From a virus: 30,472 bases of DNA. How positions within the stretch are numbered: the first letter of the stretch is position 1; the number at the start of each line of letters is the position of its first letter. The stretch is from positions 1-30,472 of IMG/VR virus record IMGVR_UViG_3300020470_000135; one strand, given 5' to 3'. Positions 2,997 through 14,822 of the stretch are shown piece by piece. Under the pieces are notes generated by a model. It made no database searches, had not been told where the DNA came from, and saw nothing but the letters and a program-made list of their open reading frames with translations. The translations under genes were made by a program, and so were the position numbers.

Positions 2997-3210
2997 ACTG
3001 TATGAAGAAACAGGAATTTATGCGTGGCATACAAACGAATTAAAACAAGACTATGCAGATATGACTGTTGAGTTTGGTTTTCCACCTATGACTGATGTTG
3101 AAGATGCTATTAAGCAGATTAACGAAGCATTGGAGAAAAGTAGTTTGGATTATCAAATGACTACTTGGACTATGCCACACATAGATAACTATGACGACAT
3201 AGAGGGTTAA
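2974..3210 (+). CDS. Hypothetical protein, 78 residues
   Basis: Starts at GTG 2974, overlapping the preceding gene by 23 bases. The purine-rich AGAGAGAGACAGAG in front is the likely ribosome site. The protein is acidic with two helices (about 1-30 and 38-58) and a Trp/Tyr-rich end. No family recognised. It is the last gene of the upstream operon. Its stop is followed at once by the folded non-coding segment before terL. Confidence 0.65.
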   Translation: MEKKDIDKLYEETGIYAWHTNELKQDYADMTVEFGFPPMTDVEDAIKQINEALEKSSLDYQMTTWTMPHIDNYDDIEG

Positions 3211-3304
3211 GTTGAAATCTTGTAGTAAGGAAGTGTAGACTAAAATAGTCGGCTTCCTTGCTGACAAGCCCTCCCATCAACGCCTATCTCTTCGGAGATA
3301 GGTG
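3211..3304 (+). ncRNA. Structured RNA element between the upstream operon and terL
   Basis: Four nested helices can be read by eye: GTTGA 3211-3215 with TCAAC 3277-3281; CTTGT 3219-3223 with ACAAG 3264-3268; AAGGAAG 3227-3233 with CTTCCTT 3253-3259; and GACT 3238-3241 with AGTC 3247-3250 around AAAAT. A separate perfect hairpin follows: CCTATCTC (3283-3290), the loop TTCG, and GAGATAGG (3295-3302), extendable outward. The cUUCGg loop is an exceptionally stable RNA tetraloop. No T-run follows, so this is not a classic intrinsic terminator. It starts at the base after the previous stop codon. It may be a regulatory RNA, a processing site or a packaging-related site. The fold is seen; the function is not known. 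Confidence 0.5.
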
Positions 3305-3321
3305 TATATAATAGGAATATG
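3301..3321 (+). promoter_or_regulatory. Promoter for terL, apparently leaderless
   Basis: TATAAT at 3307-3312 ends seven bases before the A of the terL ATG (3319), so transcription should begin at or next to the start codon. The preceding GGTGT (3301-3305) overlaps the 3' arm of the UUCG hairpin. AGGA is present but only two bases from the ATG, too close for normal Shine-Dalgarno use. The same order, GGTGT-TATAAT-ATG, recurs at 14804-14822. Confidence 0.5.
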
Positions 3322-4584
3322 GAAGAGCCGAAGTTCAGCAAGTTGCTTGAAGAAGAGAAGCAAAAGACAAAAATTATAAAATTACCTCCTTTGCACGAGA
3401 ATCAACAAACAGTTTCAGATTCAGAAGCCCGTTGGAAAATTCTTTGTGCAGGTAGGCGTTTTGGGAAAACAAGGCTCGGGGTTCAACTCTGTATAGAAAC
3501 AGCAATGAAGGGAAAACGAGCCTGGTGGGTGGCACCTACTTTTTCTATTGCTCGTGTTGGTTGGCGAGACATAATGGCAGCAGGGTATGATCTTGGCGAA
3601 TCGATGGGTGTTGATGTCAAAATGGGAGATATGACAGTTACATTCCCTAATGGTGGATTTATTGCTGTAAAATCTGCCGATAATCCTCAAAGATTAAGAG
3701 GTGAAGGCCTTGATTTCCTTGTTATGGATGAGGCTGCCTTTATTAAAGAAGAAACATGGACAGAAGTTCTTCGTCCAACCCTTACAGAAAGAAAAGGATC
3801 TGCATTATTTATTTCTACACCTCGTGGTATGAACAATTGGTTCTATCGTTTATGGCAAGATGCAGACGAAAGAGAAGATTGGGACAAATTTAAGTTCTCA
3901 ACTGTAGATAATCCAAGTATTGACCCCGCAGAATTAGAATCTGCAAAGCAAGAAATCGGTTCATTAACTTATGCTCAAGAATATGAAGCAGAATTCGTTA
4001 ATGAAGGTACCCAAATGTTCAAATCAGATTGGTTTAATTACTATCAACCTGCTGTTCGTGGAGCAAAAATAGATGGATTTACTTATGAATTCGATAATAT
4101 GCCAAAATATGCGACTGTGGACCTGGCGACATCAACAAAACAAACTGCTGACTACACAGTTATGACAGCTTTTGCTCATGATTCAAGTGAAAATAAATTA
4201 TTCGTTATAGATATGCTTAGAAAAAGAATGGAAGCACCGGATATCATTCCTTCTATGAAAAAATTTTATAAAAAAAACAATCTCGATTGGATTGGGATAG
4301 AAAGAGCAGGGTTCCAATTATCAATAATTCAATTTGCAAAGAGAGAAGGCCTTGTTGTTAGAGAATTAAAAGCAGATAAGGATAAACGCTCCAGAGCGAC
4401 ACCTTTGTCTGCTAAAATGGAAAGTGGTCAAGTGTTTTTCCCTGATGACCCAATGTGTGATTGGGTACATGAAGCAGAAAGAGAACTTTTAACTTTTCCT
4501 TTGGGAGCACATGACGACATAGTTGATACCCTTGCTTATGGAGTATTAAACTTAAATAAAAGAATAGGTTGGAAAGCGTTTTAA
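3319..4584 (+). CDS. terL: Phage terminase large subunit
   Basis: This is the ATP-driven motor that pumps DNA into the prohead and cuts it into genome lengths. The N-terminal ATPase has Walker A GRRFGKTR (residues 45-52), Walker B LDFLVMDEAAF (from about 131) and the coupling segment LFISTPRGMNNWFY (about 166-180). The C-terminal RNase H-like nuclease has the acidic motif VDLATSTKQTADYTV (from about 266), an IERAG segment (about 334) and the final acidic cluster HDDIVDTLAYG (about 398-408). Length (421) is normal for a complete protein. The start is ATG 3319, directly after the promoter. No obvious small terminase gene precedes it. The portal ATG follows the stop with no gap. Confidence 0.96.
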   Translation: MEEPKFSKLLEEEKQKTKIIKLPPLHENQQTVSDSEARWKILCAGRRFGKTRLGVQLCIETAMKGKRAWWVAPTFSIARVGWRDIMAAGYDLGESMGVDVKMGDMTVTFPNGGFIAVKSADNPQRLRGEGLDFLVMDEAAFIKEETWTEVLRPTLTERKGSALFISTPRGMNNWFYRLWQDADEREDWDKFKFSTVDNPSIDPAELESAKQEIGSLTYAQEYEAEFVNEGTQMFKSDWFNYYQPAVRGAKIDGFTYEFDNMPKYATVDLATSTKQTADYTVMTAFAHDSSENKLFVIDMLRKRMEAPDIIPSMKKFYKKNNLDWIGIERAGFQLSIIQFAKREGLVVRELKADKDKRSRATPLSAKMESGQVFFPDDPMCDWVHEAERELLTFPLGAHDDIVDTLAYGVLNLNKRIGWKAF

Positions 4585-10236: not shown

Positions 10237-10388
10237 TTTTCGTATTCTTCTAAAGATTTAAGTAACTTATCAGACAAAACAACTTCAGGTTCTGCAACCC
10301 AAAGTGGCTCTTTTCTTTTTTGTTTTCCGTATGATCTAATTTCCATCCAATAAGAAAATCTATCTTTCAAGTGTTCAATTATTTTCAT
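10233..10388 (-). CDS. Hypothetical 51-residue protein, last gene of the antisense cassette
   Basis: Read from ATG 10388 (MKIIEHLKDRFSYWMEIR...). Upstream in-frame starts at 10397 and 10469 lie deeper in the methyltransferase gene. It overlaps the 3' end of the cytosine methyltransferase gene by 14 bases. The protein is helical with a basic middle and an acidic end (LLKSLEEYEN). I do not recognise it. Its place after the methyltransferase makes an accessory role possible. It converges with the FmdB-like gene, sharing overlapping stop codons. Confidence 0.55.
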   Translation of the reverse strand: MKIIEHLKDRFSYWMEIRSYGKQKRKEPLWVAEPEVVLSDKLLKSLEEYEN

Positions 10389-12135
10389 ATCTACCATCAA
10401 ATACAAATGTTCCATACTTAAGAGAATTTGAAATACATATTCCAACAAATTCTGCACAAGCAGGTACAACTGCGTTTCCTAATGCTTTTATTTTATTTAC
10501 CCTGTCAGGTTCATCTTCTATTGTTCTAGGTTCTGTTTCCCACGGTTCTATTACATAATCATCTTTATAAACATAAGGATTTTCTGCAAGATTACCTTTA
10601 GGATTTATTCCTTCTGCAATTCTTTTTGTACTAGGCCTGCTACTTGTTACAAGAGGTGTCTGCCAATTTTGTCTTTGCCATTCAAAACTTTCTACTGTTG
10701 TCATTTCTTTATCAAACTTTAATTCTTTTAAAAAAGGTTTTATAGCTTCCCAATCTTCTATGGTCGGATAAGAGAAACCACCTTTGTCATATCTAAACCA
10801 ATGCTCAATAGTTGTTTTCTTAACATCTATATTTTCTGATAATTCTTTAACTGATGTTTGGGACCTAAGATAATCTACAAATTTCTTTTGTGTTGGTAGG
10901 TCAGGTCTTTTTAATATTTCGTGGTCTTTATAAATTTCAAATAGTTCAGGATTTTTATGTATTTCATCAATAGCAATTTGGTCTGCCAAAGTTATTTGTA
11001 CAGGTTGACCTGAAGCTCTTTTTGTTTTTCCTTGAAGTAATTTAGTTGCATACTTCAGAGCATCTTCTCCTGCTTTACCATCCATAGTTGTAGGTGTTCT
11101 CCATTTTTGTGATAAATGAACTCTATCTTGTAAATTCAGACTGTGAGAATTTTTTCCATCTTTACTTAGTCTCCTACCTTTTTCATTAAGTTCCATATTT
11201 TCGTGAAGAACTTCTTGTGTTGTAGGAGTAGGCCAATGTAAAACATCAGCATTGTATGTCCAATAGTTAGGTAAACCTAATTTTCCTGCCAACCCGACGG
11301 GAACCCCATAAGTAGGGACACCCACTTGCTGTTCAATCTTTTCCCAATAAGTTTGGGGTTTCTCTCCCCCATGTCCATTTCTAGAGTCGACCCGTGCTTT
11401 CCTGCTTTCACTGACGGAGCTTGTTTGTTCACTGGTTTCGAGGCTTGACTCGCTCTCGGAGTCGACCATAGTTTCGGATTCTCTCTCAAGTTCCCGGTAC
11501 TTTTCCTCTTGCTCTTTTTGGATTTGTCCCCACGGTAAAGAGCGTTCTCCAAAGCTTCCCCTGTTCTCGGATTCAAGTGATCTAAAGTGTTCGGAGTTTC
11601 CCACGATGAATATTCTTTCTCTAAGGTGCGGGGCATTAACCGAGGCTGCTGATACAATTTGCCATTCAACACTATACCCGCTACTGGAAAGGAAAGAAAT
11701 AACTCTTCCGATTGCTCCTCCTTTGTTCCCTTCGTCGTCTTTGGCTGTGAGGAGTCCTCTGACATTTTCTGCAACAACCCATTTTGGTTTAAGAACGCTA
11801 ATGGCTCTTTCGAACTGATACCATAATATTCCTCGTTCATCTTCTTCACTCATTCCTTTCCTGTTACCTGCGTAACTAAATGATTGACAAGGGAATCCCC
11901 CTATCAACATATCTATAGGTTCTAGTTTACTAAAATCAACATTGTTAATATCATCATTAATAACTTTTGATTTAGGCCATCTCTTTTTTAATACACTTGC
12001 ACAGTAAGGGTCAACTTCTATTTGCCATACTGTTTCTGCATTAAAATCTTTTAATCCTCTTTCAATTCCTAAATCTAAACCACCGATTCCAGAAAATAGA
12101 CTACCAATCTTCAATTCGCTCCTTTGCTCCTTCAT
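10375..12135 (-). CDS. dcm: DNA (cytosine-5-)-methyltransferase with long insert containing an HTH-like segment
   Basis: Transfers a methyl group from S-adenosylmethionine to carbon 5 of cytosine in DNA. Motif I LFSGIGGLDLG (13-23), motif IV GFPCQSFS with catalytic Cys 83, motif VI ENV (123-125), motif VIII LRERIFIV (171-178) and motif X ALGNAVVP (551-558) are all present. At 586 residues it is far longer than a typical 330-400. The extra length lies between VIII and X: a Ser/Glu/Arg-rich stretch (about 185-260), three W-x-TP repeats (301, 345, 491) and a helix-turn-helix-like segment (about 413-470: SVKELSENIDVKKTTIEHWF). It overlaps the upstream methyltransferase gene by 35 bases from ATG 12135. 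TTG 12114, with AAAGGAG four bases ahead, may be the real start. Confidence 0.93.
   Translation of the reverse strand: MKEQRSELKIGSLFSGIGGLDLGIERGLKDFNAETVWQIEVDPYCASVLKKRWPKSKVINDDINNVDFSKLEPIDMLIGGFPCQSFSYAGNRKGMSEEDERGILWYQFERAISVLKPKWVVAENVRGLLTAKDDEGNKGGAIGRVISFLSSSGYSVEWQIVSAASVNAPHLRERIFIVGNSEHFRSLESENRGSFGERSLPWGQIQKEQEEKYRELERESETMVDSESESSLETSEQTSSVSESRKARVDSRNGHGGEKPQTYWEKIEQQVGVPTYGVPVGLAGKLGLPNYWTYNADVLHWPTPTTQEVLHENMELNEKGRRLSKDGKNSHSLNLQDRVHLSQKWRTPTTMDGKAGEDALKYATKLLQGKTKRASGQPVQITLADQIAIDEIHKNPELFEIYKDHEILKRPDLPTQKKFVDYLRSQTSVKELSENIDVKKTTIEHWFRYDKGGFSYPTIEDWEAIKPFLKELKFDKEMTTVESFEWQRQNWQTPLVTSSRPSTKRIAEGINPKGNLAENPYVYKDDYVIEPWETEPRTIEDEPDRVNKIKALGNAVVPACAEFVGICISNSLKYGTFVFDGRYENN
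11277..11840 (-). CDS. Overprinted reading frame inside the dcm gene
   Basis: A second frame on the same strand, open for 190 codons from GTG 11849 or 187 from ATG 11840, lies wholly inside dcm. Its product has a FPVAGIVLNGKLYQ segment (54-66), WETPNTLDH (83-91), WSTPRAS (128-134) and the ending LNSKWVSLLMGFPSGW (172-187). I recall this order, ending in W-LMGFP-GW, from phage proteins encoded with cytosine methyltransferases. The dcm product here is a Ser/Glu/Arg-rich linker, unlike a folded domain. G+C is clearly higher: 53% in 11401-11460 against 25% in 10801-10860, counted by hand. GAAGAAG or AAAGGA may serve as ribosome site. Alternatively it is the relic of a frame change. Confidence 0.45.
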   Translation of the reverse strand: MNEEYYGISSKEPLAFLNQNGLLQKMSEDSSQPKTTKGTKEEQSEELFLSFPVAGIVLNGKLYQQPRLMPRTLEKEYSSWETPNTLDHLNPRTGEALENALYRGDKSKKSKRKSTGNLRENPKLWSTPRASQASKPVNKQAPSVKAGKHGSTLEMDMGERNPKLIGKRLNSKWVSLLMGFPSGWQEN

Positions 12136-12769
12136 AATATTCAGGTACTAATTCTATTCCTATAAAATCTCTACCGTATTTTTTACAGCTTATTCCTGTT
12201 GTTCCACTTCCCATAAATGGATCTAAAACAATATCATTCGGTTGTGTAAAATGATCAATTATAAAATCTGCTACATCTGGGTGCATAACAGCATTAAATT
12301 TACCTCTGTTTTTATGATAACCAGGAACATCTATATGATTTTTCGTAAAAATCTCATTAGACCTTATGTATTTTGAGTTTGTAATTCCAAGAATGTATTC
12401 ATAAACATTAGAAATGTAATAATGTTGACTGCTTGGTATATAATTTACAGGTTTATGCCAAATAATGTTTTGTTGTATCTTGTTAGCGTAATGACCAATT
12501 AACTTATGCACATCTTTTTTGTTGTAGTAATTTGCTTGAATATTCCAAAACACATGAGTTTTACTAACTCTTAAGAGCTGGTCTATTACTTCTATAGACC
12601 ATTCCAAGTAATTAACTTTATTGTCCTCAAACTTATCAAAATCGTATTTATGGTATTTATTACCTTTAGTTCTTTTTATATTGTAAGGAGGACTTGTAAA
12701 AACACAATCAACTGAATTGTCCTCAAAAGTTTTTAAGACTTCTAAGCAATCTCCATTAAACAGGTCCAT
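12101..12769 (-). CDS. DNA amino-methyltransferase (SPPY type, N4-cytosine or N6-adenine)
   Basis: Methylates an exocyclic amino group in DNA using S-adenosylmethionine. Catalytic motif IV TSPPYN is at residues 25-30 and the SAM-binding motif DPFMGSGTTG at 183-192, so motif IV precedes motif I as in the beta class. The recognition region lies between them (about 60-175). The SPPY form is common in N4-cytosine enzymes but also occurs in N6-adenine enzymes, so the base cannot be fixed. Length 222 is normal for a small complete enzyme. No restriction endonuclease is next to it, so it is probably protective or regulatory. It overlaps the 40-residue ORF upstream by 14 bases and dcm downstream by up to 35. 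Confidence 0.93.
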   Translation of the reverse strand: MDLFNGDCLEVLKTFEDNSVDCVFTSPPYNIKRTKGNKYHKYDFDKFEDNKVNYLEWSIEVIDQLLRVSKTHVFWNIQANYYNKKDVHKLIGHYANKIQQNIIWHKPVNYIPSSQHYYISNVYEYILGITNSKYIRSNEIFTKNHIDVPGYHKNRGKFNAVMHPDVADFIIDHFTQPNDIVLDPFMGSGTTGISCKKYGRDFIGIELVPEYYEGAKERIEDW

Positions 12770-12878
12770 CGATACCTAACTTAATGTATATTTCTTTTAA
12801 TTCTTTTTCTAGTTTTTCTTTTTTGTTAATAAGTTTTATTGTTTCTTTAGGCAAATAAGATTCATTTCTATAAAACAT
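12756..12878 (-). CDS. Hypothetical 40-residue coiled-coil-like protein
   Basis: A short ORF from ATG 12878, beginning MFYRNESYLPKETIKLINKK, with a Lys/Glu helix in the middle (KEKLEKELKEIYIKLG). It exactly fills the space between the transglycosylase and the methyltransferase, overlapping the latter's start by 14 bases. No good ribosome site is visible, so it would depend on coupling with the gene 16 bases upstream. Position and heptad-like pattern favour a real gene. Confidence 0.45.
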   Translation of the reverse strand: MFYRNESYLPKETIKLINKKEKLEKELKEIYIKLGIDGPV

Positions 12879-12894
12879 AACTAAATATTAACAT

Positions 12895-13437
12895 TTAATT
12901 TTGTTTCCGCCACATTCGCTCCCATTTTTCTGCATCTCCCCAACACCACTCGCTAGAACTCCAATCTACCCATCTTGTTCCTGAATATGTATCTTCAGCT
13001 AAAAGAGAAGCTGCATATATATTCCAATAAGGTGAGTATTGTACAGGTTGAAATTCAAATCCTAGATCTGTTCTAGAAGTTGTTTCAGAAGACCAAGGTA
13101 AGCCCCATCTAGTTATCACCCAAGTGTTCCATTCTGGTATTCCGTGTAATTCAACCATCCACTTCCAAGTATTTGGTATAAATTGCATTACTCCTGAATC
13201 GTTATCTTCTGCTCTGAAAGCATTAGATTTACCACGACTTTCACACCATCCAATTCTAAAGGCGGTGTAAAGATTTTCTTCGTCAAAGTGCATAATGTAG
13301 TATTGGGCGTGTTCTGCCATGTTCGCAGGCATATTGTCCATACACTGTTTTACTTCATAAATGTCTTCTATAGTGGGTTGATTGTGGATAACGGGTTGTT
13401 GAAAACTTGCTAAGACTAGCAAACATTCAGCTATCAT
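12895..13437 (-). CDS. Lytic transglycosylase / lysozyme-like endolysin or virion wall hydrolase
   Basis: Predicted to cut the glycan strands of peptidoglycan. The core has the lysozyme-like pattern GWCESRG with probable catalytic Glu 66 (63-69), then SGVMQFIPNTWKWM (81-94). Near the end comes YWNIYAASLL (about 137-146) and WVDWSSSEWCWG, the usual finish of phage lysozyme-like domains. The first 15 residues (MIAECLLVLASFQQP) are hydrophobic but lack an N-terminal basic residue, so a signal peptide is possible but weak. An excellent GAGGAG site lies seven bases before the ATG. No holin is recognisable in the cassette. Confidence 0.85.
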   Translation of the reverse strand: MIAECLLVLASFQQPVIHNQPTIEDIYEVKQCMDNMPANMAEHAQYYIMHFDEENLYTAFRIGWCESRGKSNAFRAEDNDSGVMQFIPNTWKWMVELHGIPEWNTWVITRWGLPWSSETTSRTDLGFEFQPVQYSPYWNIYAASLLAEDTYSGTRWVDWSSSEWCWGDAEKWERMWRKQN

Positions 13438-13765: not shown

Positions 13766-13792
13766 TTTTATATGTTAATAGAGGAGAACAAT

Positions 13793-14763: not shown

Positions 14764-14801
14764 TCCCCTGCTGCTACACCGGTAGGGGATTTCGTGTTTT
14801 T
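14764..14801 (+). terminator. Rho-independent terminator
   Basis: TCCCCT (14764-14769) pairs with AGGGGA (14784-14789). CTAC/GTAG in the loop can form an alternative inner stem. The T-rich tail TTTCGTGTTTTT follows. It ends the regulator transcript 24 bases after the stop and stands directly before the next promoter. Confidence 0.65.
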
Positions 14802-14803
14802 CG

Positions 14804-14822
14804 GGTGTTATAATTGGGTATG
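14804..14822 (+). promoter_or_regulatory. Promoter for the head-closure/tail operon, apparently leaderless
   Basis: GGTGT (14804-14808) is followed directly by TATAAT (14809-14814), also readable as an extended -10. The A of ATG 14820 is six bases after the -10, so the mRNA should begin at the start codon. No Shine-Dalgarno fits. It has the same order as before terL (3301-3321). Confidence 0.5.

Follow-up and report, generated by a model that had tools for sequence, protein, structure and literature searches.

What occupies the gap before the terminase large subunit gene (terL) of this phage: an RNA in its own right, the leader of the gene that follows, or a DNA site? The window, that is, the whole 30,472-base stretch analyzed, is the record of an uncultured virus (IMGVR_UViG_3300020470_000135) and holds a tailed-phage late region, with genes for the portal (4585), prohead protease (6229), major head protein (7490) and tape measure (18307). 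The plus-strand late region is interrupted at 10375-13437 by three minus-strand open reading frames, two of them DNA methyltransferase genes; an endonuclease-like or Lar-like gene follows at 13772. The original prediction described positions 3211-3304 as four nested helices and a separate 8-pair hairpin, proposed a regulatory RNA or a packaging start site, and called for shuffled folding controls and a search for compensatory changes in relatives. Two features bound the gap on its 3' side:

3319-4584, plus strand: terL, terminase large subunit (Pfam Terminase_6N and Terminase_6C), the neighbor of the RNA and not a part of it
3307-3312, plus strand: TATAAT, exactly 6 nt 5' of the terL ATG (3319), the likely -10 of a leaderless terL transcript

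A TATA[A/C]T box 6-7 nt ahead of the terL start is kept in the window clade (hereafter clade A) and in the relative L041, and similar boxes occur in relatives whose TerL is 62-65% identical. Within the window, TATAAT stands 5-6 nt ahead of the starts of terL (3307-3318) and of the head-closure gene (14796-14815; gene at 14814), a spacing that fits leaderless transcripts, as expected. The head-closure box comes after a terminator, and boxes like it are present in relatives. About 100 nt before the head-closure gene, G002, G003, G004 and G008 carry a conserved structured stretch, AGTCGGTGG...CCATCGACTGTTTTCTTTT, which is probably a terminated hairpin RNA.

As plus-strand RNA, 3211-3304 folds at -40.5 kcal/mol compared to a mean of -18.7 (SD 2.9; z = -7.5) for shuffled sequences, none of 200 being as good, and the minus strand folds much less well (z = -3.5). 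The pairing beyond expectation that had been proposed was thus confirmed. The nested helices can be drawn as described (5 bp, 3211-3215/3277-3281; 16 bp with one bulge, 3219-3234/3252-3268; 5 bp, 3238-3242/3246-3250), but the cUUCGg hairpin has 9-11 pairs rather than 8. The outline of the element also stood: it starts straight after a TAA (3208-3210), lacks a T-run and ends at the TATAAT before terL. What did not survive comparison with relatives was the nested set as a functional unit. Its 5' half is a promoter region that varies among relatives, and invariance begins only at about 3246; helices 1-3 are paired in 72-90% of cases in relatives, without double changes, and were rejected as the mature structure.

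This division emerged from 27 IMG/VR loci with terL relatives (84-100% protein identity), collected with their upstream DNA. In an alignment of 12 sequences, the longest invariant run spans 65 nt (window positions 3246-3310) and the next longest 11 nt; in the same sequences, 82% of the third positions in terL codons vary and 18% do not. Although the sequence upstream of the invariant run varies, TTGAWA-18-TANA[C/A]T keeps a constant register across the window clade, inside the nested helices of the original prediction. The parts of the RNA can therefore be set out as follows:

3212-3241, plus strand: predicted sigma70-type promoter of the RNA (-35 TTGAAA, 3212-3217; 18-nt spacer; -10 TAGACT, 3236-3241)
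3224-3233, plus strand: upstream arm AGTAAGGAAG, complementary to 3253-3262, which would hide H1 in read-through transcripts
3248-3304, plus strand: core of the small RNA, running from G3248 (predicted start) through H2, supported by the invariant run and covariance-model homologues
3248-3265, plus strand: H1, GUCGGC and GCUGAC around a UUCCUU loop, opening at the predicted first nucleotide
3266-3280, plus strand: open linker of 15 nt between H1 and H2
3269-3278, plus strand: invariant unpaired CCCUCCCAUC, a putative anti-Shine-Dalgarno-like seed, the same in all aligned rows
3281-3304, plus strand: H2, a 10-bp stem with a cUUCGg loop, all variable pairs kept

The start at G3248 is a prediction from the register of the -10, 7 nt upstream. 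RNA beginning there folds into H1, an open linker and H2 (z = -5.5), with a single structure making up 91% of the ensemble. Counting from the same G, 29 members drawn from three clades have a -10 box that spans -12 to -7 (T in 24 of 29, A in 28, any base, A in 28, any base, T in 27), which supports a promoter belonging to the RNA itself; the -35 is clear only in the window clade, and the region upstream of the RNA in L041 has no TTGA -35.

Evidence that the stems are selected as RNA comes from more distant relatives. In L041 and L055 (TerL 71% identical), AGTCGGCTTCCTTGCTGACAAGCCCTCCCATCAACG is exact and the UUCG stem is rewritten with every pair kept; three double changes in H2 relative to L041 were seen on a plain MAFFT alignment not fitted to structure. 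No closer intermediate clade was found in a search with the L041 TerL. Because H1 is invariant in the window clade, its support comes from other clades. A covariance model built from the window clade and L041 matched distant marine siphophages with TerL only 62-65% identical, namely clade B (45-53 bits) and clade C (about 25 bits). An IMG/VR pattern scan gave 31 stretches, of which 29 were kept as members; L208 and L209 fit the last pattern, but with unrelated flanks and only 27 bits were removed as chance matches. Among 22 distinct members, 98.8% of stem cells are paired, and eight pairs and 32 cells show double-sided changes, values reached by none of 500 shuffles; the alignment was fitted to the structure, which favors it, and sliding the structures by 1-3 columns lowers pairing to just 24-48%. 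H2 carries double changes in seven of its ten pairs across the family. Clades B and C share the H1 base stem, topped by an apical hairpin variable in sequence and length. CCCUCCCAUC is identical in 46 of 46 rows of the larger alignment, an invariance partly built in by the pattern scan, which demanded it, although covariance-model matches made without that demand keep it too. A conserved unpaired segment and covarying stems are expected of an intrinsically terminated trans-acting small RNA. Clade B has an A and at least eight U immediately behind H2, a standard intrinsic terminator; no U-run directly follows H2 in clade A, including the window, or in clade C.

A first alternative is that the RNA is a cis-acting leader of terL and the late operon, a 5' untranslated region governing translation or stability, for example through a 5'-terminal protective hairpin. 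The window clade would allow this, as the RNA lies directly before terL without a U-run, so that transcripts could continue, and the predicted first nucleotide is also the first of H1. In clades B and C, however, 0.9-2.9 kb separate the RNA from terL, which follows on the same strand. The next gene downstream is terL in clade A, a HesB/IscA-like open reading frame in L101 and small open reading frames in other clade C phages, and clade B has none for about 480-750 nt; because the downstream gene differs among clades, the RNA is no dedicated terL leader. The clade B terminator after H2 and the -10 box that terL apparently has 6 nt from its ATG also speak against a leader, which we regard as rather improbable. 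In L101 (928-1272), a HesB/IscA-like open reading frame, named by eye from its sequence, comes right after the RNA, with TATAAT 6 nt ahead of its ATG. A different candidate small RNA occurs about 60-230 nt before terL in L083, L084, L088 and L099, with TTGACG-17-TATAAT, a hairpin with a CCTCC loop, a second hairpin and an intrinsic terminator; the covariance model does not match it.

Antitermination offers a second alternative, in which the nascent RNA would bind RNA polymerase and permit read-through of late-region terminators. Like the phage RNA, the put RNAs of HK022 are about 60-70 nt with two stem-loops, and putL lies just 3' of a phage promoter (PMC9378689). Here too, judged by the fold from the predicted start and by the promoter register, a phage transcript would open with a pair of stem-loops immediately behind its promoter; they lie on the terL strand, 5' of the late genes, and sequence conservation is strict. 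In contrast to put, an open linker of 10-15 nt parts the stems, and in one clade, B, H2 itself belongs to an intrinsic terminator; genes farther on also appear to be served by a promoter of their own, located behind a terminator. We therefore consider a Put-like function unlikely.

Less probable still, indeed very unlikely, is an RNA that binds protein or serves in packaging, with a role like that of phi29 pRNA: every member shares the strand of terL and sits no more than about 3 kb ahead of it, and its unpaired bases are strictly conserved, but the downstream genes vary, no likeness in structure to phi29 pRNA was seen, and clade B resembles an ordinary terminated small RNA. A DNA site for packaging or recombination with incidental hairpins, which would include the packaging start site of the original prediction, is the least credible of all, for although the element adjoins terL and the nucleotide homology shared with G002, G003 and G008 sets in at a module boundary (3208-3209; upstream genes are not the same among relatives), the stem changes keep plus-strand RNA pairing including G-U, the distance to the -10 box is fixed in every clade, and contig ends cluster elsewhere. 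They gather at AACTATACCTA repeats 2.2-4.1 kb to the 5' side of the RNA: seven clade A contigs (G009, L022, L026, L027, L014, L012, L009) stop about 45 bases or less from the repeats, and four more (the window, G005, G006, L025) begin near the repeat region. Because other contigs cross the repeats, this evidence is only suggestive; a genome end, if nearby, would be at the repeat region and not at the RNA element, an indirect argument against a cos or pac site there. The AACTATACCTA repeats, where many independent contigs end, the L139-L157 contigs also among them, may mark a genome end or a replication origin.

Given homologues far from terL, a constant -10 and the clade B terminator, we favor an independent small RNA over a terL leader or packaging site. 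The regulatory RNA first proposed gains support from its predicted own promoter, an invariant unpaired segment and the compensatory stem changes, which were found in relatives as the proposal had suggested checking. The stretch before terL is apparently part of an undescribed small-RNA family of marine bacterial viruses. Over the window, no Rfam family reached its gathering score; with relaxed thresholds, clades A, B and C matched other families only, at chance level, and no tRNA or tmRNA was found. DNA searches of phage isolates with the window, clade B and clade C gave no match, and no earlier description of the RNA was found in the open-access literature. The exact core is absent from GTDB genomes; a relaxed core gave five matches without hairpins, judged to be chance (three of those genomes were rescanned with the covariance model). 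The two-gap pattern was absent from 398 genomes of one phylum, which may not be that of the host. The family is new, but as a phage-encoded small RNA it belongs to a kind already known.

How might such an RNA act? Small RNAs 6C and B11 of actinobacteria are similarly small, with hairpins and exposed C-rich sequence for G-rich ribosome-binding regions, and B11/6C use their C-rich loops to repress an mRNA whose 5' untranslated region contains a G-tract (PMC10470900). Unlike 6C/B11, which have two C-rich loops, the phage-encoded RNA has a single C-rich linker between hairpins; H1 is capped by UUCCUU (or by a variable apical hairpin) and H2 mostly by UUCG, and the Rfam scans gave no match to the 6C covariance model. 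The c4 antisense RNA of phages P1 and P7 is also small and structured, with loops that pair around a ribosome-binding site (PMC12197685), whereas here there is no Rfam match to antisense families and no ant-like target in the phage contigs.

The sole long unpaired segment that never changes, CCCUCCCAUC, is C-rich and complementary to G-rich ribosome-binding sequence. On balance, we lean toward a phage small RNA with its own sigma70-type promoter that would act in trans through this C-rich seed. Transcription would begin at about G3248; the first nucleotides would form H1, H2 would close the 3' side, and CCCUCCCAUC would stay single-stranded between them. The seed, perhaps with the UUCCUU loop, would then pair with G-rich ribosome-binding regions of messages and block their translation, probably that of host messages, where GAUGGGAGGG-like sequences would be candidate pairing sites. 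The sequence itself shows the fold and its covariation, the seed that never changes, the register of the promoter, members lying far from terL and the clade B terminator; we infer that the RNA is produced, that it pairs with mRNA and that host messages are its targets, and repression in trans is suggested by analogy with actinobacterial 6C/B11. No conserved target was found in the phage contigs, so the targets are probably in the host. For the portal, capsid and tape-measure proteins, matches among isolates frequently come from phages that infect actinobacteria or other Gram-positive bacteria; at only 25-36% identity, this is a weak lead to the host.

The promoter region may add a further layer. 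Pairing of H1 and the linker with the 37 nt that precede the start exceeds chance in eight of ten clade A variants tested (0-1 of 500 shuffles; 30 and 70 of 500 for the other two), and in L041 the upstream 37 nt pair with the RNA through a different arm (2 of 500). In clade C, sequence ahead of the start such as GACGAU-n4-GAGGGUAU is complementary to AUACCCUC-CC-AUCGUC within the RNA (0-21 of 300 shuffles); clade B has no self-complementary upstream arm. Such pairing could mask the RNA in read-through transcripts. We speculate, as a doubtful but conceivable extension, that this forms a start-site-dependent switch, in which H1 and the seed would be exposed only in transcripts from the RNA's own promoter, and promoter sequence would pair with H1 (clade A) or the seed (clade C) in read-through transcripts and silence the RNA. 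The clade-specific arms base-pair to different portions of the RNA, as though selection acted on masking rather than on sequence.

To our knowledge, few phage small RNAs are supported by comparative evidence. The RNA described here spans a group of uncultured marine siphophages and keeps a 10-nt segment in every aligned member, and its covariance model and seed make it testable in existing marine metatranscriptomes. It offers a tangible starting point for understanding how these phages may regulate messages during infection.
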